Shown: in pieces, positions 3-9,193 of the stretch
Position numbering within the stretch: position 1 is the first letter of the stretch
Layout: each line of letters opens with the position of its first letter
Assembly: GCA_022837185.1 (NCBI GenBank)
Contig: JALHJD010000109.1
Coordinates: forward strand, 1 to 9,193
From: Desulfobacteraceae bacterium
Lineage (GTDB): Bacteria; Desulfobacterota; Desulfobulbia; Desulfobulbales; Desulfobulbaceae
DNA length: 9,193 bases
Direction of reading: 5' to 3'
Notes under the pieces: model-generated
Seen by the model: the letters and a program-made list of their open reading frames with translations, nothing else
What the model was told of the DNA's origin: nothing
The model's database searches: none
Position numbers and translations under genes: made by a program

Positions 3-851
3 GCGTATCAGAACCAGATTGCGATCCTGGAGGAACAGGTAACGCAACGGGCCCAGGAGTTGGGGGAACTGCAGGCCAGGGAAAAGCAGCTGCAGAGAAG
101 CCTGTCGTTTCTGCAGCGCGAGCTGGAAATGACCCGTCCCCTTGTGCAGCAGGGGGCAGTGTCCGAGGTGGAGATGCTCCGCCTGGAACGGGAGGCAAAC
201 AAGCTGAACGGCGACCTTGAATCAACGAGGTACCAGATACCCCAGGTCCGGTCGCGCTTGCAGGAAGCGAAGCGATCCATCGAAGACCGGCGGCTCAATT
301 ACCAGAATCAGGCCAAGGAGGAACTCAACGATATCCTGTCGGAGCTGGAGGGGCTTTCCGTCTCCTCGGTTGCCCTTGAAGACAGGTTGAAAAGGACCTT
401 GGTCAGATCGCCCGTCCGGGGCACTATCAACCAAATTCTCGTCAATACCGTGGGGGGGGTCATTCAGCCGGGAATGGATCTTATGGAAATCGTCCCCTTG
501 GAGGACACGCTGCTGGTGGAAACGAAGATCAAGCCCTCCGACATCGCTTTTCTCCATCCGGGCCAGAAGGCGCTGGTCAAGTTCTCCGCCTACGATTTTA
601 CCATGTACGGAGGCCTCGAAGGCGACGTCGAGCATATCAGCGCCGACAGCATAACCGATGAAAAGGGTGAGAACTTCTACCTGGTGCGGGTCCGCACGAC
701 CAGGAACTTTCTCGGCGCCGAGGAAAACCCCATGCCCATTATTCCGGGCATGGTCGGCGAGGTGGATATTCTGACCGGCAAGAAGACGATCCTGTCCTAT
801 CTCCTGAAACCGGCACTGCGGGCGCAGAAAATGGCGCTGAGGGAGCGATAG
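3..851 (+). CDS. HlyD/LapC-type type I secretion periplasmic adaptor (5' end missing)
   Basis: This is the C-terminal 282 residues of a membrane-fusion protein that would link an inner-membrane ABC exporter to a TolC-like outer-membrane channel. The frame is open to the left edge, so the N-terminal transmembrane segment and the true start lie outside; a TTG at 60 is internal. Seen in the sequence: a long charged coiled coil over visible residues 1-125, including the GAVSEVEMLRLERE stretch typical of AprE/LapC-like adaptors; a half-lipoyl motif at about 133-165 (RSPVRGTINQI, then GGVIQPGMDLMEIVP); and a beta-barrel/membrane-proximal region at about 168-258 ending in the usual P.IPGMVGEVDILTGKKT block. 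The ABC transporter partner would be expected upstream. The exported substrate, often a giant adhesin or RTX protein in this family, is not in view. A run of eight G (452-459) lies in the lipoyl region. Family assignment is secure; the substrate is unknown. Confidence 0.95.
   Translation, partial: AYQNQIAILEEQVTQRAQELGELQAREKQLQRSLSFLQRELEMTRPLVQQGAVSEVEMLRLEREANKLNGDLESTRYQIPQVRSRLQEAKRSIEDRRLNYQNQAKEELNDILSELEGLSVSSVALEDRLKRTLVRSPVRGTINQILVNTVGGVIQPGMDLMEIVPLEDTLLVETKIKPSDIAFLHPGQKALVKFSAYDFTMYGGLEGDVEHISADSITDEKGENFYLVRVRTTRNFLGAEENPMPIIPGMVGEVDILTGKKTILSYLLKPALRAQKMALRER
839..845 (+). promoter_or_regulatory. Ribosome binding site for the LuxR-type regulator
   Basis: GAGGGAG lies 8 bases before the ATG at 854, inside the last codons of the secretion adaptor gene. 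The position supports this start and suggests translational coupling with the upstream gene. Confidence 0.7.
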
Positions 852-853
852 AG

Positions 854-1492
854 ATGAACATCCTGCTGTGTTCCGGGCGGGAATCCGTCCTGGAGAGATG
901 GAGCTCTATCCTGGCAGCCCGGAAGTGGACGATATTCAAGGTCAATTCCTTTGAAATGCTGCAAGCGGCCGTGCGGCAGGACGAACCGTATCTGCTGCTG
1001 GTGCATCAATCCTTTGTCGATCCTCAGGTCATTGCCAGGCTGAACAGTGCGGTGCCGAACTCCAGGATATTTATCCTGTCGGACACGCCGAACCCGGATG
1101 ACGGCACCCTGCTGCTGAAGCTGGGTGTCATCGGCTATGCCAGTACCTATATTGCCCCGGCCAGGCTCATCGAAGCCGTGAAAGCCGTCCTCTCGGGCAG
1201 GGTCTGGTTCGGCCAGGAAATCATCAGCCGGCTGATCCGCTCCATCGCCCCGCCCGGCGAGCCGGCCGGGGGAAGCGAGCCGTCGGAGATTCTGGCCCCG
1301 CTCACCCAGCGGGAGAGGGAGATTGCCCTGCTGGTCGCCGAGGGTCTTTCCAACCTGGCCATCGGGGACCGGCTGTACATATCGGAGCGGACCGTGAAGG
1401 CTCATCTGGGGTCCATTTTTGCCAAGACAGGGGCACAAAGCAGGGTCAAGCTCGCATTGCTCATCAGCAAGGGAATGAAAGAGGGGCACTGA
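854..1492 (+). CDS. LuxR/NarL-type transcriptional regulator with degenerate receiver domain
   Basis: A 212-residue protein with the two-domain layout of NarL/FixJ response regulators. Residues 1-130 follow the receiver fold: MNILLCSG for strand 1, YLLLVHQS for strand 3, IFILSD for strand 4, and GVIGYASTYI before the last helix. Residues 147-208 are a LuxR-type helix-turn-helix with LTQREREIALLVAEG, then ISERTVKAHLGSIFAKTG, the DNA-recognition region. The catalytic set of a phosphorylated receiver appears absent: the acidic pair after strand 1 is S7-G8 or nearby non-acidic residues, the aspartate position after strand 3 is V50/H51, and the conserved lysine is replaced by threonine near 98. 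Only the S76 position is kept. It probably binds DNA without aspartyl phosphorylation. It starts 2 bases after the adaptor stop with a good ribosome site, so it likely belongs to the secretion operon and may control it; its targets are not known. Confidence 0.9.
   Translation: MNILLCSGRESVLERWSSILAARKWTIFKVNSFEMLQAAVRQDEPYLLLVHQSFVDPQVIARLNSAVPNSRIFILSDTPNPDDGTLLLKLGVIGYASTYIAPARLIEAVKAVLSGRVWFGQEIISRLIRSIAPPGEPAGGSEPSEILAPLTQREREIALLVAEGLSNLAIGDRLYISERTVKAHLGSIFAKTGAQSRVKLALLISKGMKEGH
1481..1486 (+). promoter_or_regulatory. Ribosome binding site supporting the GTG start at 1496
   Basis: GAGGGG sits 9 bases before the GTG at 1496, within the end of the regulator gene. It favours the early GTG start despite the long, arginine-rich leader that this start gives the metalloprotease. 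Confidence 0.55.
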
Positions 1493-1495
1493 GCC

Positions 1496-2314
1496 GTGTA
1501 CCCGGAAATCATCCCTCGGTTGCCCCGCCGAAGATGCGGGCAACGGGGTCATGGCCCGATCATCCGAATCGCTGCAAGCTGCAGGCGCTTTTTTTTCGGC
1601 TGCCATGCCCTCCGGATCCTGCCGCTGGTCCTGGCCTGCCTTTCCTTCATGGCCTGTTCAACCGGGGACGACGGGCCGGACATCCCGGTGTTCGATGTCC
1701 ATTTTGTTGTTCTCTCCGGCAAGCCGCACATTAACGATGCTGTTGACACGGAAACGGCGGTCAACGAGATCGATATCCTCAACAGGTATTTTGTTGCCGA
1801 AGACAGGCAGCCGCTGGTTCGCTTCCGATTCAAGGCATTACATACCTTTGAGGAGATACAGGACACCTCCTGCGAATTCATTCGCATCGGTGATTTCACA
1901 GGGGAGTACAGTTCCGGGTACTGGCGGGATCTCTTCAATGCCTGTCCGGATCCGCGCGTGGTCGATCCATCGGCCATCAACTGTTATATTGTGGACAGTT
2001 ACTCCGCCGGCAAAGGCTTTGCCGAGAAAGACAGCCACGGAGTCAACAACGCCAACAAACCCTACATCCTCCTGGACTGGGAAAGATTGAATCATACCAT
2101 TCAGAGCCCTGAAGAACATGAAATGGGGCATGCTTTCGGCCTTGGCCATGAATGCGCGCCGGGGGCCGGCATCGAGACGTCCACCAACATAATGGCCAGC
2201 AGGGAGTGCGGGAAAGGAAGCGGGGGTCGGCGGGACATCGGCTTTAACAGGAAACAGGTCAGGATCATCAAGCAAAATGCCGCCATAATGCGGAAGAAGT
2301 TGGACAGGAAGTGA
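1496..2314 (+). CDS. Putative metzincin-type zinc metalloprotease lipoprotein
   Basis: A 272-residue predicted secreted zinc protease. The zinc-binding motif is HEMGHAFGLGHE (residues 208-219), which fits the metzincin pattern HExxHxxGxxH with E209 as the catalytic base. NIMAS follows, with M233 about 15 residues downstream as a candidate Met-turn, giving a matrixin-like arrangement. The N-terminus has a basic stretch, then a hydrophobic core (ILPLVLACLSFMAC) ending at C54, a possible though imperfect lipobox, followed by polar STGDDG. It is therefore likely exported by Sec and anchored as a lipoprotein. The GTG start gives a leader of about 53 residues, longer than usual; a TTG at 1520 is an alternative. 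An eight-T run (1589-1596) lies in the leader. It starts 3 bases after the regulator stop, so it is probably co-transcribed. Substrate is unknown; processing of an exported surface protein is a guess from context. Zinc-protease fold is fairly sure, the exact family is not. Confidence 0.85.
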   Translation: MYPEIIPRLPRRRCGQRGHGPIIRIAASCRRFFFGCHALRILPLVLACLSFMACSTGDDGPDIPVFDVHFVVLSGKPHINDAVDTETAVNEIDILNRYFVAEDRQPLVRFRFKALHTFEEIQDTSCEFIRIGDFTGEYSSGYWRDLFNACPDPRVVDPSAINCYIVDSYSAGKGFAEKDSHGVNNANKPYILLDWERLNHTIQSPEEHEMGHAFGLGHECAPGAGIETSTNIMASRECGKGSGGRRDIGFNRKQVRIIKQNAAIMRKKLDRK

Positions 2315-2345: not shown

Positions 2346-5300
2346 GTGAACAGTGAAAGAATATTTGTGCTGCTCGCCAGTTACAGGGATAGTGAGTGTG
2401 AAAAAACCATCAACGAGTTGTTTCACAAGGCATCCCGGCCGGAGAACATATCCGTGGGGATCTGCTGGCAATACTCGGATGAGGACGACTTCAGGTGTTT
2501 TGATCCCTGCATGGGGCATGGTGATGCCATCCGGATTGCCCGCATCCCCTACCGGGAAACGCGAGGCGTCTGCTGGGCAAGGCGAATTGCGCAGGAATTC
2601 CGGGATGGAGAGGAATACACGCTCATTATCGACAGCCATATGCTGTTTGAGCAGGACTGGGACAGGTATTTTATTGGGGAAGTACACAAATGCCCATCGG
2701 CCAGACCTCTGCTCAGCCATTATCCCGCCGGTTATGAACTGCCCGATGTCAAGTCGCGGATCCCGCCTGTCGTCAATGCCGCCCACAGCAGAAAAAACAG
2801 ATTCGCAAGCTGCTGTTTTGCCGCGGACTACAATATCCGCGGGAACATGTTTCTCTTTGAGCCGGGCGCGCAGGCCGAGGAACCGATCAGGGGATTCTTT
2901 TATGCCGCGGGATTTGCCTTCGGCCCCTCGCAATTTCTGCAGGATGTCCCGTATGATCCCTATCTCGACTGGGAAGAGGAAGAAATCGCCATTTCCCTGA
3001 AGCTGTGGACCCATGGCTGGGACATATTCTCACCCCGAAAGCATTATATTCACCATCTCTATCACACCGGAAAAAGACCCGGCACCCCGGATTTCAGAAA
3101 GGCGGTCCGGAGGAGGGAGCTCGAACAGCGGGCGCTCATTTCCAAAAAACGATTGTCTCATCTCCTGGGCATCCGCAAAACAGGCGACCAGGAGGCGCTG
3201 CGGGACCTTGATCTCTATCCCCTCGGTTCGCGGCGGTCGATTGCCGATTTCGAAATGGCGGCCGGGGTGAGCCTGGAAAAGTCGGCGGCAACCGAGCGCT
3301 CGGTGGACTGCTGGTTTGCCCTTGCCCACCCGGACCATCCCCTGCGCAGCGCCCGGCAGGATCTGGAAAGGATTTTCTCGCAGGCGTTCCGCTCGGCAAG
3401 GAAGAAAGGGCGGCCGGTTTCAGGCCAGGGCTCGACCATCGAAGCAACGGAACATCTGCGGAGCAATCTGGCCGCCGTGCTTGGGCGGTATGGGATCAGA
3501 ACCGTTCTGGATCTGGGCTGCGGCGATTGCACCTGGTTCGGCCGCATGCTGGACGGCATGGACATCGACCGCTATCACGGGATCGATATCGTCGCCTCCC
3601 TGATTGAGGAAAACCGGAAAAAATATCCGCCCACCATATGCTCCTTTACCCATGCCGACATCACCTCAGCCTCCCTGGACGCCTACGATCTGGTCCTGGT
3701 CAGGGACGTCCTGACCCACCTGAAGGTGCGCAATGTCATCAGGGTCCTGACGAACATAAAAAACAGCGGCTCGCACTATTTTGCCGCCTCGCATTACAGC
3801 GGCTGCGACCGGAGCCGGGATCTGCACAATGACGGCGGCTGGCGCAGCATCAACCTGCGGATACCCCCGTATGCCCTCCCGGAGCCCATGGAAATCATTG
3901 AGGATATCCCGGAAAAGGGGAAATATCTCGCCCTGTGGAAAACCACGGACATCCCCGATTTCAGCGACGCGGCAATGGAAATCGAAGTCATCAACGGGAA
4001 ACAGGATATCCGTTCAATACGGAAGCATCTTTCCCGGGATGAAAGCGAGTATCTTGCCTCGCTCAGGTATTACAGATTCATTGAGTCCGACAGATTTTCC
4101 CTCTCCCCGGACACGGCGGACCCGATCGTTCAACGCGTATTCCGGCGGACCAGAACGCTGGCAGGGACAAAGCTTCATGGGGCGTACATCATCGAATGTG
4201 CCGGCGGCGATGACCGTCCGCTGCGTTCGGTCATGGAAGACCTTCCTGAACGGACTTCCGTCTTTATTACCTTGCTTTCGGGCGGCCACGGCGCCGTCAC
4301 GCACCTTGCCGGGAACGGCTCAGGCGTGCCCCTGCGGCAGGGGGAGTGCCTTGCGTTCGACAGCGCCGGGGACGCTCGCGGGCTGCTCCGGGTTTCGGCC
4401 GGGGATCAGGCGCCGGCGCGGCTGCTCGTTCAGTTTTTCGCCGACGAACGTACCGGCGCGGGAAAGTTCGGGCCGGCAGATTCCGGGGATGACGCCATCG
4501 TCCTCAATGCGGCGGGCGACCTGATGCTTGCCCGCGACATGCACAGGTATTATCCCCGCAACCCTGCGCAATCCATTCTCCACGATGTGTATGACATCCT
4601 GGCAGGCGGAGACGTCAATCTGTGCAATCTGGAGACGGTTATTGCCAGTCAGGGGACAATGCAGCCCAAGGGAGAGAAAAGTCCCTACTATTTCAGGGCC
4701 GGCACGACGCTTGCGGCCTTTCTCGCCGATGCCGGTTTCAATGCGGTCACCACCGGCAACAACCATGCAATGGATTTCGGCGCCGAAGCGCTGAAATTCC
4801 AGGCCGGCTTCCTTGATTCCATGCACATCGCCCATTGCGGCAGCGGCATGAATATCGCCGAGGCGCGCAGGCCGGTCTATCTGGAAATCAACGGAACGGT
4901 AATCTGCCTCATCAGCTTCTGTTCGGTCCGGCCGAAGAATTCGGGCGCCACTGAACAGGATGCCGGAGTCTTTCAGATCAACGACCCCGCCTCGATTTCG
5001 GCCGTTCTCGCCCCCGTTGTCCGGGAGGCCGTGAAAAAAGCCCATCTGATCATTGTCTCGCCCCACTGGATAGAAAACTGGGAAGAACATCCCGGGCAGA
5101 TCATCCGGCGCGAGGCACGGAAACTGATCGACATGGGGTGTGACGCCATACTGGGCCATTCGTCGCATCTCTTGCATGGAATAGAGATATATAACAACAG
5201 ACCCATCGTCTATGACATGGGATGTTTTCTGCTTGACCGGACCCGCGGGCACCAGGAGCTCAGGCGCTCCGCCCTCTTCCAGCTGCTGATCGGCAACAAC

Positions 5301-6623
5301 GTGATCAGGGAGTTGCGTGTTTTTCCGCTGTCCCTCAGGAACGGAGCCGTCCGCCTGGCCGACGGGGAAGATGCGAGGAAAATTTTTCGCAAGCTGACCA
5401 GCCTGGACAGTGCCTCTGCACTCTCCACAGAGAGCGCGCGGGATTATTTCAGTTTTACCTTTGCGGAAAGTCTCCCCCGCACTCCGTCGGCAAAAACAAC
5501 GGACCCGTTTGCGGTCGGCCGCAACAGAATCACCCCGCCGGCGGCCGGCGGGGCAACCGATCTGGCCCTGACCGATGCCCCGGCCCGGCATACCGATTTT
5601 CCGGAAATCGCCATGGGCGGAGCGGCAATCGTCGATGCCCGGCTGCCGGAATCCGTCAGGGCCGGTTCCGGTTTTCTCCTTAAAACAGTGCTCAGGACGG
5701 AGCTGAAAATTGAAAACTATGAAGTGGTCGTCCGCGGCGTTTCCCACCTCTTCGACAATACGTTCCAGGAAGTGCACCTGTTTTCGGACGGCGCCGTCGA
5801 TTCCTCCATGGCCGGGGGACGGCCGTTTCTCGTCGACTATCATTTCGTCCGGCTCCAGGCCGGCATCAGGCCCGGACGATACAGCATATTCTGGAGTCTG
5901 CGGGAGATTGGAACCGGGAAGCCTCTGCTGACGGAAAAAGGCGGGGATGCCGCGGAACTGGGGACCATGTACATCCTTCCCGAGGGTGTGCCGCTGCAGG
6001 CTTCGGGGATAGACTGGGACGGCAAACTCCCCCAACCATTGCGGGAGGGCTTTGCCGAGGAGTTTACGGAGAATCCGGAGGCCGGAGTTTTTGCCTTCAT
6101 TGTCGAGGCAATCACCGGCAGGCCGCCCCGGCAGGGCGGGCTGTCGCTGTATGCCTACGAGCAGAAATACGGGTTGTCGCCGGCAAAGAACTTTGTCTAC
6201 CTGACGCTTGCCGGCGCGGGCCGTTCACTGCGCTGGGGATGCACCCGGAAGGACCTGAAGACCGCCGTGGAGAGAAACATTGAGAAAATACGCGCGAAGA
6301 GCGGGTTCAGCTCAATTTTGGCAGAAGGCCTGGAAAACCTTGCCTTCAGGCTGGAAATAATCACCGCGGAGACCAGGGCGGATCCAGGGGCGCGGCAGGA
6401 CATCAATATGGCCTGCCGGGGGTTGAAGCTGGAAAGCGGCGGCAGATCGTTTATCCTGCTCCCGTCGGAAGCGTATGAGAGGAAGATGCTGTCCCTTGAC
6501 CGGCAGTTCGCCTACCTGGCCGCTCTTCATGGCATTGACTCGGCCGATGGGTATTCCTGCCATGTGCTGGAATCCGCCGGGCATGTTTTTCAGCGGGGCC
6601 GGGTATCGGGCTTCTACGAGTAA
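2346..6623 (+). CDS. 1425-residue multidomain glycan enzyme: GlcNAc transferase, methyltransferase, CapA-like domain
   Basis: A single uninterrupted frame from a GTG; the ribosome site is weak (AGGCGG near 2331). Residues 1-250 resemble the Skp1 GlcNAc-transferase (GnT1) family: IFVLLASYRD at the start, GICWQYSDEDD, YRETRGVCWARR, the metal/nucleotide motif D96-S97-H98, and LDWEEEEIAISLKLW near 208-221. Residues 250-365 are a basic linker. Residues 370-536 are a class I SAM methyltransferase (VLDLGCGDCTW at 387-397, HGIDIVA at 411-417, DVLTHL at 454-459). Residues 595-702 look like a degenerate double-stranded beta-helix. Residues 716-1000 are CapA/PGA_cap metallophosphatase-like: AAGDLML, NLET at 761-764, TGNNHAMDFG at 803-812, SPHW at 905-908, GHSSHLLHGIE at 937-947. 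Residues 1085-1212 are beta-rich, perhaps sugar-binding. Residues 1225-1425 weakly resemble AMMECR1. No signal peptide or membrane segment is seen, so it is probably cytoplasmic. It likely builds and modifies a surface glycan or glycoprotein; acceptor unknown. GT, methyltransferase and CapA calls are solid; the other three are tentative. Confidence 0.93.
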   Translation: MNSERIFVLLASYRDSECEKTINELFHKASRPENISVGICWQYSDEDDFRCFDPCMGHGDAIRIARIPYRETRGVCWARRIAQEFRDGEEYTLIIDSHMLFEQDWDRYFIGEVHKCPSARPLLSHYPAGYELPDVKSRIPPVVNAAHSRKNRFASCCFAADYNIRGNMFLFEPGAQAEEPIRGFFYAAGFAFGPSQFLQDVPYDPYLDWEEEEIAISLKLWTHGWDIFSPRKHYIHHLYHTGKRPGTPDFRKAVRRRELEQRALISKKRLSHLLGIRKTGDQEALRDLDLYPLGSRRSIADFEMAAGVSLEKSAATERSVDCWFALAHPDHPLRSARQDLERIFSQAFRSARKKGRPVSGQGSTIEATEHLRSNLAAVLGRYGIRTVLDLGCGDCTWFGRMLDGMDIDRYHGIDIVASLIEENRKKYPPTICSFTHADITSASLDAYDLVLVRDVLTHLKVRNVIRVLTNIKNSGSHYFAASHYSGCDRSRDLHNDGGWRSINLRIPPYALPEPMEIIEDIPEKGKYLALWKTTDIPDFSDAAMEIEVINGKQDIRSIRKHLSRDESEYLASLRYYRFIESDRFSLSPDTADPIVQRVFRRTRTLAGTKLHGAYIIECAGGDDRPLRSVMEDLPERTSVFITLLSGGHGAVTHLAGNGSGVPLRQGECLAFDSAGDARGLLRVSAGDQAPARLLVQFFADERTGAGKFGPADSGDDAIVLNAAGDLMLARDMHRYYPRNPAQSILHDVYDILAGGDVNLCNLETVIASQGTMQPKGEKSPYYFRAGTTLAAFLADAGFNAVTTGNNHAMDFGAEALKFQAGFLDSMHIAHCGSGMNIAEARRPVYLEINGTVICLISFCSVRPKNSGATEQDAGVFQINDPASISAVLAPVVREAVKKAHLIIVSPHWIENWEEHPGQIIRREARKLIDMGCDAILGHSSHLLHGIEIYNNRPIVYDMGCFLLDRTRGHQELRRSALFQLLIGNNVIRELRVFPLSLRNGAVRLADGEDARKIFRKLTSLDSASALSTESARDYFSFTFAESLPRTPSAKTTDPFAVGRNRITPPAAGGATDLALTDAPARHTDFPEIAMGGAAIVDARLPESVRAGSGFLLKTVLRTELKIENYEVVVRGVSHLFDNTFQEVHLFSDGAVDSSMAGGRPFLVDYHFVRLQAGIRPGRYSIFWSLREIGTGKPLLTEKGGDAAELGTMYILPEGVPLQASGIDWDGKLPQPLREGFAEEFTENPEAGVFAFIVEAITGRPPRQGGLSLYAYEQKYGLSPAKNFVYLTLAGAGRSLRWGCTRKDLKTAVERNIEKIRAKSGFSSILAEGLENLAFRLEIITAETRADPGARQDINMACRGLKLESGGRSFILLPSEAYERKMLSLDRQFAYLAALHGIDSADGYSCHVLESAGHVFQRGRVSGFYE
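5533..5553. repeat. Perfect GC-only inverted repeat in an interdomain linker
   Basis: CCCCGCCGGC (5533-5542) is followed after one base by its exact reverse complement (5544-5553). It lies inside the 1425-residue gene, in the region encoding the low-complexity linker TPPAAGGAT between the CapA-like domain and the beta-rich domain. It could form a stable mRNA hairpin. No T-run follows, so it is not a classical terminator. Confidence 0.6.
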
Positions 6624-7939
6624 GGGCCTGCAGGCAGGTCGCTGATTTTCCAGACCGCGAAGCTGTTTTTGTACAGGTACTCCCGATGCCATGCCTCCGG
6701 CTCGGGGAAATGAAACGGCGGCCTGGTCAGGTTCAGCCGGCGCCAGTCGCCAAGCTTGCAATCGGTATTGGCTGCTGTCTCCACGTCCGAGTAGGCAAGC
6801 AGGTAGTTGGAATCACTGGCGATGATATGATCAATGACCCGATGGATATCCGCAAAGGGAAGGTGGGTGAAAATATCCTTGCAGATAATGTAGTCTGAGC
6901 GGGGCAGGTCCATTTCGACAATATTGGCGAGCTGAAAATTCATTCCCGTATTGGCGTAGTTGACCAGGTTGGTGCAGATAATCCCGGCGACGACGTCCAT
7001 GCCGATATACAGGCTGTCCCGCAGGTTGACCTCCTTCATCCAGTTGCAGTCTCCGCATCCCAGGTCGGTGATGACCAGCGGATTTCCTCCATCATGCCCG
7101 TCAATGATGCCTTGCAGAACCTCGCGTATTTTTCTGGTGTAGCGTACTTTTGAGCCGACGCCGGAGACGGTTTCCTTTTTCTGCCATTTTGCCGCCTGGT
7201 AGATCCGCGTAAATCTTTCCGCGTGCGCGTCGCGCGGCCGGAAGAGCTGACTTGAGGGCAGCGGATGATAGGCGGTCAAATGGTTTCTGTACACGAAAAA
7301 GACTTCAGTGGATTTCTGCAAAGCCTGGAGAAACGAGGGAGTCAGGTTCGGCTCCTTCTGTTCCGGCACGATGCATTCGATCTGGCTTGTATAGAGCTGG
7401 ATCGCCTTTTTCTTCAATTCGAGCACCGGGGCAATATCCCGGACAACCCTTTTGCTGAAGAACAGGTCGCCGGTCTCTCCCCAGACCATGTACATGAAGC
7501 GCGATCCCTTGTACTGCAGGACATCCAGCGCTTCGCTCACAATTTCATAGGTGGTTATATGATCAGGATGGCTGTCGTAGGTGTGGGGAAAATAGACTTC
7601 CTCAATACGCTCCCTGTCCGGTATCAGCAGGGTGAGAATGGCATCGTATGCCTGCTGCCGGGATGCTTCCAGTCCCCGGTCCGCATGCCGGAGAAAGGTG
7701 ATGTCACCATTACGGACCCCCAGTAATGCAAGGGCTGCCCGGGATTCCTGTTCTCGCCGTGCCGCCAGTGTGTGCAGCAGGGGATTGTCGTATGACCGGT
7801 GGGATCCCTTTCCGTCGGTCAGGACAACCACCTTTATGGTGCGGCCCTGCGCAGCCTTTGTTGCGATTGTTCCGCCACAGGCCAGGGTTTCATCATCCGG
7901 ATGAGGGGCGAAAACATAAATGAGTTTTTTACGGTCCAT
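6614..7939 (-). CDS. PIG-L/LmbE-type deacetylase fused to a SAM methyltransferase
   Basis: A 441-residue fusion. Residues 5-140 are a PIG-L/LmbE deacetylase: APHPDDE (11-17) carries the zinc ligands and catalytic aspartate, and H124-P125-D126-H127 supplies the second half of the metal site. Family members remove the acetyl group from N-acetylglucosaminyl substrates. Residues 145-270 are a linker that includes the rest of the deacetylase fold. Residues 285-436 are a class I SAM methyltransferase with VITDLGCGDCNW, YIGMDVVAGI, DIFTHL and GDWRRLNLTRPP. This second domain is a recognisable relative of the methyltransferase domain in the large convergent gene. The ATG at 7939 is chosen because it sits the usual few residues before the PHPDDE motif; a TTG at 7951 would add four residues, and neither has a clear ribosome site. 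It begins 21 bases after the stop of the upstream toroid gene, so co-transcription and translational coupling are likely. Its stop overlaps the end of the convergent gene by 10 bases. Confidence 0.93.
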   Translation of the reverse strand: MDRKKLIYVFAPHPDDETLACGGTIATKAAQGRTIKVVVLTDGKGSHRSYDNPLLHTLAARREQESRAALALLGVRNGDITFLRHADRGLEASRQQAYDAILTLLIPDRERIEEVYFPHTYDSHPDHITTYEIVSEALDVLQYKGSRFMYMVWGETGDLFFSKRVVRDIAPVLELKKKAIQLYTSQIECIVPEQKEPNLTPSFLQALQKSTEVFFVYRNHLTAYHPLPSSQLFRPRDAHAERFTRIYQAAKWQKKETVSGVGSKVRYTRKIREVLQGIIDGHDGGNPLVITDLGCGDCNWMKEVNLRDSLYIGMDVVAGIICTNLVNYANTGMNFQLANIVEMDLPRSDYIICKDIFTHLPFADIHRVIDHIIASDSNYLLAYSDVETAANTDCKLGDWRRLNLTRPPFHFPEPEAWHREYLYKNSFAVWKISDLPAGPYS

Positions 7940-7960
7940 TATCGTTTGCAAAAGGGGTCA

Positions 7961-9193
7961 TTACGAACCAGGGGACAATCGTCGGGGTTGCGCGGCGGCG
8001 GCAATCGGTGCCTTGCCTTGCCGTTGTTCGCCTGCTACGCAGGGGTCCTCCATGGCCTTGTACAGCCGGGCAAAAAAGCAGGCGGCATGCTGGACGGAGT
8101 CCACCCGCATCCACTGCCTGGTCAGCTTGAAGCGAAAACTGTCGACGCTTTTTTCCGGCTTGAGATGGGCATAACAGGACTCCGGGGTGTTGTAGGTGTA
8201 GAGGAGGTTCTTGGCGGCCTTGCGCAGGTACTTCATGAAGTGCGCCGCGCGCCTGGCGTCGCCCAGGTGCCGGGCCAGGCACCAGGCGGCCATCAGACCT
8301 TCGCACCGCGCCCCGTCCGGATAGGCATGGTCGCCGTACCGGTAGTAGTATGCCCCGATGTAGTCGAAATAGGGGGCGTCGTCCTCCTGGTACATATGAT
8401 CGATCATGGCCTGGGCGTCGTTGCAGACAAAATCGATGTAACTCTGCTCGGCAAAGCCTTCTATCCTCACCCATTCCTCGATGGCCTGCATCAGCCACCC
8501 GTCGGAGGGGAGAGGGGCGAAAAGATCATGATATTTCCGGGGCCGGATGTGGATCAGAAAGTCCAGGGCGCTTTTGCTCCCGGTCAGGATCAGATCCCTG
8601 AGCCGCGGCTCAATGTCCGGCATGTGCCGGAGATACAGCGCCAGACCGAGCAGGGCCTCCCCCGGATAATAAAAGGAAAAGAGCTTTTCCCTGGTCTTTT
8701 CGTCCGGGTCAAGGATCTCCCGGCCCCCGTTGAACCGGGGATGGATGAAATAGCCGATCATTTCGCCGCCGGCGGAAATCCTGGACAGGATATGATTGAC
8801 CAGGCCGTCGATGTATCGCCGGTATCGGGCATCGCCGGAAAGGCGGTAGTGGTGGAGCAGGGCGACCAGGCCTATGCCCGCCCCGCCGAGCTTGGATTTT
8901 TTGTTGAAGAAGGGGTAGCAGGCGTAACGGCCCTGATATGCATGCTCCCTGATAACGGTGAGAAAAAATTCGATGGATGCCGCCGCCCCATCCAGATATT
9001 TTTTTTCACCGGTCAGCTCATACGCCCTGAGCAGGGTGATCGTGCCCCCGGAGTGCCTGAGAATATTGTAGTAGGTGGGGTCGGTCATGTTCGGGTGCTG
9101 AAAATCGACCTCGGAGTCCTTCACCCCGTCGTAATAATAGAGAAACCGGCCATTGGGCTGCATGTGGCGGAGGAGCCAGTCCGAACCACCGAC
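7961..9193 (-). CDS. Alpha/alpha-toroid (six-hairpin-like) carbohydrate-active protein (N-terminus missing)
   Basis: The frame is open through the right edge, giving 410 visible residues; an internal ATG at 9163 follows ten in-frame codons (VGGSDWLLRH), so the true start is probably outside. The protein is rich in repeated helical hairpins with aromatic and GG turns: HSGGTITLLRAYELTGEKKY near 47-66, GGAGIGLVALLHHYRLSG near 103-120, YYPGEALLGLALYLRHMP near 175-192, PDGARCEGLMAAWCLARHLGD near 292-312, and MRVDSVQHAACFFARLYKAM near 362-381. This pattern is typical of alpha/alpha-barrel glycosidases, epimerases and lyases acting on uronic or N-acetyl sugars, but I cannot name the family or a catalytic residue. 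The last 30 residues are low-complexity and basic. It ends with tandem stops (TAA TGA) and lies just upstream of the deacetylase-methyltransferase, so the two likely act on the same glycan. Fold class is fairly sure, function is open. Confidence 0.85.
   Translation of the reverse strand, partial: VGGSDWLLRHMQPNGRFLYYYDGVKDSEVDFQHPNMTDPTYYNILRHSGGTITLLRAYELTGEKKYLDGAAASIEFFLTVIREHAYQGRYACYPFFNKKSKLGGAGIGLVALLHHYRLSGDARYRRYIDGLVNHILSRISAGGEMIGYFIHPRFNGGREILDPDEKTREKLFSFYYPGEALLGLALYLRHMPDIEPRLRDLILTGSKSALDFLIHIRPRKYHDLFAPLPSDGWLMQAIEEWVRIEGFAEQSYIDFVCNDAQAMIDHMYQEDDAPYFDYIGAYYYRYGDHAYPDGARCEGLMAAWCLARHLGDARRAAHFMKYLRKAAKNLLYTYNTPESCYAHLKPEKSVDSFRFKLTRQWMRVDSVQHAACFFARLYKAMEDPCVAGEQRQGKAPIAAAAQPRRLSPGS

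Follow-up and report, generated by a model that had tools for sequence, protein, structure and literature searches.

The six-part fusion protein and its relatives

The stretch of DNA analysed here, called the window below, is an entire 9193-base contig (C181; JALHJD010000109.1) of a draft genome of a Desulfobacteraceae bacterium (GCA_022837185.1, or G000; 3.3 Mb in 535 contigs, 88.9% complete and 7.5% contaminated), and its longest gene encodes a protein in which six parts are fused. As an earlier note made from the sequence alone had proposed, the open frame occupies positions 2346..6623 and encodes 1425 residues (aa); it lies on the forward strand and begins with GTG. That note had also placed a PF11397 glycosyltransferase (GT), a class I methyltransferase (MT) and a CapA domain as the first, second and fourth segments, and all three have Pfam matches above cut-off in this order: PF11397, Methyltransf_25 and PGA_cap, followed by a sub-threshold AMMECR1. 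The six-part protein is real and is neither a chance frame nor a chimera, because a protein search found full-length relatives at 98, 84 and 51% identity and because every domain is under purifying selection (dN/dS against the 84% relative: 0.16 for the GT, 0.32 for the MT, 0.44 for the prolyl-4-hydroxylase-like part, 0.29 for CapA, 0.35 for the sandwich and 0.38 for the AMMECR1-like part).

All parts lie on the forward strand. The GT of the (GlcNAc) type, a GT60-type family (residues 1-311, 2346..3278), matches PF11397 at E 3.3e-60 (204.8 bits, gathering cut-off 21; best stretch 59-311); the family had been named correctly, but the segment, first drawn as 1-250, reaches to about residue 311. 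Its D96-x-H98, presumably the metal-binding motif, is invariant in 7/7 aligned sequences, and a sequence search of the PDB with this part found no relative. The class I S-adenosylmethionine (SAM) MT (residues 359-537, 3420..3956) matches Methyltransf_25 (PF13649, E 2.5e-8 at 387-472; 34.9 bits, cut-off 27), with D389, G393 and D414 of the SAM motif invariant in 7/7 aligned sequences. Synechococcus phages (records such as KJ019123) encode a homologue of this MT part that is about 35% identical.

The third part (residues 537-705, 3954..4460) has a prolyl-4-hydroxylase (P4H)-like fold, which replaces the beta-helix that the earlier note had read at 595-702. This assignment comes from the fold, as a sequence search of the PDB gave only a chance match; the piece searched on its own against Pfam had no match. 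In the window protein (P0001) and in P0003 and P0004, which align over the whole length of the fusion, the HxD...H iron ligands of prolyl 4-hydroxylase were not found: the barrel has no conserved His, and only H561, which precedes it, is kept in 3/3. The CapA/PGA_cap calcineurin-like domain (residues 715-1030, 4488..5435; E 1.6e-56 at 720-963; 192.1 bits, cut-off 27) keeps D725, E763, N806, H807, D810, H907 and H941 in 9/9 aligned sequences. It is followed by a beta-sandwich (residues 1086-1222, 5601..6011), first described simply as beta-rich at 1085-1212, which resembles the carbohydrate-binding domain of Wzt (Foldseek E 2.0e-4) and has fold matches that include the 3-O-methylmannose complex 8dky. 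The C-terminal part (residues 1241-1425, 6066..6620) is AMMECR1-like by fold, as predicted, but not by Pfam, where PF01871 stays under its cut-off of 25 bits (E 0.066 and 13.2 bits in the whole fusion; E 0.0029 and 17.5 bits in the C-terminal piece); a profile of this part found no relative in the PDB by sequence. Judged by eye, no signal peptide is apparent at the N-terminus.

When the fusion was searched against 5.8 billion clustered proteins, 7994 candidates were scored and nine matched, comprising three full-length relatives, one relative of the tail carried on another glycosyltransferase (P0005) and five proteins with a single shared part. The CapA-sandwich tail is found behind different partners: behind PF11397-MT-P4H-like parts in P0001-P0004; behind a tetratricopeptide repeat (TPR)-GT41 transferase of the OGT type in P0005, a partial protein from a Clostridia metagenome-assembled genome in which the start of an AMMECR1-like part follows; behind a GT2 that matches TPR weakly, in P0137; and without a GT in the planctomycete protein P0133. 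The best glycosyltransferase model for the GT2 of P0137 is SunS, at 40.4 bits and far under its cut-off of 350. A protein search with the tail only had poor reach, returning the two closest copies and missing P0004 and P0005, and a CapA-sandwich-AMMECR1-like protein was found in 1/199 of the planctomycete's phylum at E <= 1e-40, this one being the source genome itself. Phage, plasmid, viral-contig and Escherichia coli collections were searched with a single query each, plasmids and E. coli with queries other than the fusion. The fusion matched 76 phage records, none covering 80% of its length, and in the form of an alignment it matched no viral contig; the six-hairpin protein described below was found in neither plasmids nor viral contigs, and a Leclercia Mur-ligase/CapA gene was not found in E. 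coli genomes.

Neighbouring genes and Lap-type secretion loci

Upstream of the fusion, on the same strand, lie a HlyD-type periplasmic adaptor of a type I secretion system (T1SS; 3..851, 5' end cut by the contig end; TIGR01843, E 7e-90), which is 96% identical to the HlyD of G004, the genome of the 84% relative; a LuxR-type regulator (854..1492; PF00196, E 1e-16), a relative of which follows HlyD in the congeners G002 and G003; and a predicted lipoprotein (1496..2314; 84% in G004) with the metzincin zinc motif HEMGHAFGLGH at residue 208 and with weak Pfam matches, all under cut-off. This lipoprotein sits between the T1SS genes and the fusion. On the opposite strand follow a PIG-L-type deacetylase fused to a methyltransferase (6614..7951; PF02585, E 2e-27), the latter 31% identical to the MT of the fusion, and the six-hairpin part of an AMMECR1-like + six-hairpin protein (7961..9193), the N-terminal residues of which are on contig C443 of the same genome.

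The same arrangement is seen at greater length in G004, where a single 20.6 kb contig spans TolC through to the C-terminus of a (Ser-Asp)n, or (SD)n, protein. On one strand the order is TolC, LapG-type protease, LapD-type receptor, ABC, HlyD, LuxR, lipoprotein and fusion, and on the other PIG-L/MT, AMMECR1-like + six-hairpin protein, dehydrogenase, CorA and the (SD)n C-terminus; the window covers this order from HlyD to the six-hairpin portion. On contig C443 an (SD)n tail is found together with CorA, the dehydrogenase and the N-terminal 114 residues of the six-hairpin protein; judging by the gene order of G004, C181 and C443 are likely to adjoin. The repeat-protein tail of G002 shares 52% identity with the tail of G000 and 57% with that of G004. 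In the G004 locus PF06035, PF16448, ABC, HlyD and OEP all score above cut-off (the window holds only HlyD of these), with NCBIfam equivalog scores that remain below their cut-offs for the LapG-type (243.7 against 320 bits) and LapD-type protein (540.5 against 1020). Among the ten genes scanned on this contig there was no polymerase for polysaccharides, no flippase and no Wzm/Wzt transporter.

Related loci differ in what accompanies the secretion genes. In the stretches read from G002 and G003, which belong to the same genus, the T1SS genes and the six-hairpin gene are kept and a Mur ligase replaces the fusion, the replacement set of G002 also including a CapA and a transglutaminase. A 1045 aa protein of G003 (L019, 9750-12887) has a marginal Fic match just under cut-off followed by a Mur ligase, and G1414 and G1421 encode Mur-ligase proteins of similar length. 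Retention-module adhesins were matched in G001, G002 and G006; contig ends truncate repeat genes. The retention module NF033682 is above cut-off in the repeat proteins of G001, G002 and G1085 and just under it in the adhesin of G006, which has no such repeats; [TAP]AAG sites are present in all four proteins. Three closely related gammaproteobacteria (G1085, G1326 and G1292) carry Lap-type genes, a (TD)n protein, an AMMECR1-like + six-hairpin gene and a 488 aa GT41 together, the (TD)n protein of G1085 having 681 TD dipeptides in 2024 aa and a LapA retention module of 80 bits (cut-off 50). Five Enterobacterales loci (Leclercia, Silvania, Kosakonia and Phytobacter) encode LapD and LapG, together with an (AD/SD)n protein whose N-terminus looks retention-like by eye and a six-hairpin protein that is distantly related (21-25% identity). 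In 4/5 of them a Mur-ligase/CapA fusion of about 1100 aa is found; such fusions lie at L063 7607-11032, L061 7646-10939, L064 7577-10951 and L066 7577-10939, and the one checked, in L063, consists of a MurF-like part, a DacA-like middle and CapA.

Six-hairpin genes and alternating-Asp repeats

With the AMMECR1-like + six-hairpin protein as query, 1576 proteins matched at E <= 1e-3, and among the 120 matches listed 3 also contain a Mur ligase, 1 a GT4 and 14 a protein kinase. The kinase fusions (P0029, P0030, P0036 and others) mostly carry Sel1 repeats. For the protein with GT4 (P0107) the best NCBIfam models are SdgB (E 1.9e-67, 228 bits) and SdgA (E 1.6e-63, 215 bits), under cut-offs of 800.

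Among the loci fetched, six-hairpin genes are linked to repeats with Asp at every second place. Counting a run as at least 15 X-Asp dipeptides in an open frame of at least 80 aa, over 69 groups of loci, we found runs in 21/32 six-hairpin loci versus 0/37 others (Fisher p 5e-10), in five phyla; among loci of at least 10 kb the numbers are 21/29 versus 0/25. Flank lengths vary between the groups, two of which come from one planctomycete and one (G000_C321) from the window's genome. Excluded beforehand were stretches that were short or that repeated a place already covered (L001-L014, L020-L027, L071-L082, L097-L103 and L106-L113), as well as L127-L129, which a repeat-protein query had fetched; L130-L135 came after the count. 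Extra flank for five of the eleven negatives turned the second planctomycete locus positive, with G003, G1414, G1277 and G1346 still negative.

Asp at every second place is the constant feature of these repeats, and the partner residue varies: mostly Ser in G000, Ser and Thr in G004, Thr in G002 and G1085, and Ala in Enterobacterales and Syntrophomonas, with (A/S/T/E/V/C)-Asp runs across Syntrophomonas, a cyanobacterium, a planctomycete and others. GTs matching the reference GTs accompany the Ser/Thr repeats of the G1085 group and of G000 and G004, but none was found with those of G002 or G365; as the latter two do not fit it, a rule by which a locus with Ser/Thr repeats would always hold a GT was rejected. 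One planctomycete gene row (L028, 5956-15868) contains a D-Ala-D-Ala ligase, an alanine racemase, a CapA-sandwich-AMMECR1-like gene, a Mur ligase, a six-hairpin protein and a kinase.

Proposed function, alternatives and known systems

We favour, with moderate confidence, a reading in which the fusion is an enzyme of the cytosol, where it likely adds sugar to the (SD)n protein, a predicted adhesin, and modifies it ahead of type I secretion, given the domain set, the lack of an apparent signal peptide, the swap among protein- or peptide-type transferases and the presence of the (SD)n protein at the locus. The earlier note had imagined an assembly line that decorates a surface sugar; a surface structure is still plausible as the thing decorated, but the surrounding genes suggest that the target is a protein, because Lap-type T1SS genes and the (SD)n protein share the relative's contig, OGT-type and SunS-like GTs replace PF11397, and an SdgB-like GT is fused to a six-hairpin homologue. 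In the proposed model, the PF11397 domain would transfer GlcNAc to Ser/Thr of the repeat, and the MT, together with the neighbouring PIG-L/MT protein, would methylate and de-N-acetylate that sugar. The P4H-like fold, lacking iron ligands, may hold the extended repeat, the Wzt-type sandwich may sense the finished sugar, and the CapA domain might carry out metal-dependent chemistry on the peptide, its nearest solved relative being the peptide epimerase MslH. Docking of the set could be the task of the AMMECR1-like domain, which the six-hairpin neighbour also has.

Several points weigh against this reading. Eukaryotic PF11397 enzymes act on hydroxyproline, and the SD repeats have no proline. The link between the six-part protein and the repeat protein is suggested only by neighbourhood and by fusion; in the window's own genome, a draft with 7.5% contamination, the (SD)n tail is on a separate contig with the gap falling inside the six-hairpin gene, LapD and LapG are not on the window, and no retention module was found in G000, G003 or G004. 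The congener G002 has (TD)n proteins together with a Mur ligase and CapA and no GT in the stretch read, and in G365 a (TD/VD)n repeat about 10 kb away is accompanied by nothing that matches the GT references. As to the wider link, 11/32 six-hairpin loci have no run (10 after extra flank), including G1277, which encodes the GT2-CapA fusion, and G003, whose Lap-type set is complete; the loci are not independent, 8/21 positives being Enterobacterales; the 37 comparison loci are mainly CapA loci; and a run was defined only once repeats had been noticed in some of the same loci.

A more general proposal, which we put forward tentatively, is a widespread modular machine for alternating-Asp proteins, in which six-hairpin, CapA, Mur-type ligase and AMMECR1-like parts, reshuffled by fusion, would act on giant ribosomal (X-Asp)n polymers. 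Much as cyanophycin synthetase acts on poly-Asp, the Mur ligases might attach amino acids or D-Ala dipeptides to the side chains of Asp, and the Ser/Thr positions might be glycosylated by PF11397, GT41, GT2 and GT4 domains that can stand in for one another. The window fusion would then be the glycosylating version with everything in one protein, its prolyl hydroxylase dead and reused as a reader of the repeat.

Alternatively, the locus could be a polysaccharide factory of the capsule or O-antigen kind, in which a surface sugar is made and capped by the GT and MT, its cap is recognised by the Wzt-like domain and CapA assists in assembly. The PF11397, MT and CapA families, the Wzt-like fold with its matches to a methylated-mannose complex, and the PIG-L and C5-epimerase-like neighbours would suit it, but the ten scanned G004 genes include no polymerase, flippase or polysaccharide ABC transporter, the swapped-in GTs are OGT-type and SunS/SdgB-like, and an (SD)n protein is on the G004 contig, which makes this explanation unlikely. 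A little less probable again is a tailoring pathway like those of peptide natural products, with CapA as an MslH-like epimerase and the LanC-like six-hairpin protein, SunS-like GT and Mur ligase modifying ribosomal peptides, so that the repeat protein would be a giant modified peptide and glycosylation secondary; the MslH Ca ligand His261 corresponds to Ile909 in the fusion, and a small precursor peptide was not noticed, though none was searched for. Hydroxyproline glycosylation as for Skp1, with the P4H-like part hydroxylating proline and the PF11397 part adding GlcNAc, is suggested by the adjacency of these two parts. The missing iron ligands all but exclude it: the barrel of P0001, P0003 and P0004 has no conserved His and so no conserved iron site. 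PF13640 was found in 0/19 genomes, the window's own included, other hydroxylase families not having been sought, and life is likely anaerobic, judging by the Desulfobacteraceae; an active prolyl hydroxylase was rejected on the absent His and the PF13640 result. The chance of an assembly or frame artefact, to which a genome in 535 contigs might lend itself, is negligible, as the same full-length protein recurs in other records.

If the favoured reading is true, the locus offers an enzyme and an acceptor that can be tested as a pair for the way in which Lap-type biofilm adhesins are coated with sugar. It would also carry Ser-Asp-repeat glycosylation beyond the surface proteins of staphylococci into type I secretion, and would put AMMECR1-like parts, six-hairpin proteins and a CapA inside a fusion without signal peptide into a context. 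The link between six-hairpin genes and (X-Asp)n repeats in five phyla makes the role of these parts directly approachable.

As far as the open-licence full-text literature searched goes, the six-domain architecture was not found described, in agreement with the earlier note, which knew of no such protein; the papers covered include those on AMMECR1 with CapA, on Skp1, hydroxylase and GlcNAc fusions and, for 10 of 21, on Lap with CapA, Mur ligase or GT. In that literature a PF11397 search found only a paper on a brown alga in which this architecture is not described, and no account was found of the six-hairpin/Mur-ligase/CapA set, of six-hairpin proteins with a Mur ligase, or of a T1SS adhesin with an O-GlcNAc transferase; these genes and (X-Asp)n repeats were not combined in any search. 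Among known systems, LapA/LapD/LapG and the Dvh system of sulfate reducers (PMC13090378), as presented in the portions available, share with these loci LapD- and LapG-type proteins, a T1SS and repeat proteins with a retention module (G001, G002 and G1085); 'glycosyl' occurs 0 times in the main text on Dvh as it was available. The lasso-peptide epimerase MslH (PMC10406935) shares with the fusion the CapA fold and 6/7 of the active-site residues named in the accessible part of that paper (D11 placed by motif and fold, the remaining residues by alignment). It differs in that His261 is replaced by Ile and that the window CapA is embedded in a fusion with, by eye, no signal peptide, and the MslH NCBIfam equivalog gives 94.7 bits on the fusion, under its cut-off of 700. 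The beta-sandwich is like the Wzt carbohydrate-binding domain.

Skp1 GnT1 and the Skp1 prolyl hydroxylase, as covered by the excerpts available, resemble the fusion in its PF11397 domain with D-x-H beside a P4H-like fold; in contrast, this fold has no conserved iron ligands, the protein is bacterial and its acceptor is likely Ser/Thr. The closest parallel in acceptor is SdgA/SdgB, known for O-glycosylation of the Ser-Asp-repeat adhesins of staphylococci (PMC3794999 and PMC8561734, in the parts available). Here too, a long (Ser-Asp)n protein is the likely acceptor and the transferase is of GlcNAc type, and one homologue of the six-hairpin neighbour carries a fused GT that is SdgB-like, a distant SdgB relative. 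Unlike SdgA/SdgB, the window GT belongs to PF11397 and is not SdgB-like (neither profile is among the NCBIfam matches of the window protein), it is part of a multi-domain fusion that adds MT, CapA, P4H-like and AMMECR1-like parts, and the secretion genes are of a LapD/LapG-type T1SS. Glycosylation of repeat adhesins is itself already known from SdgA/SdgB, as far as these sources extend.
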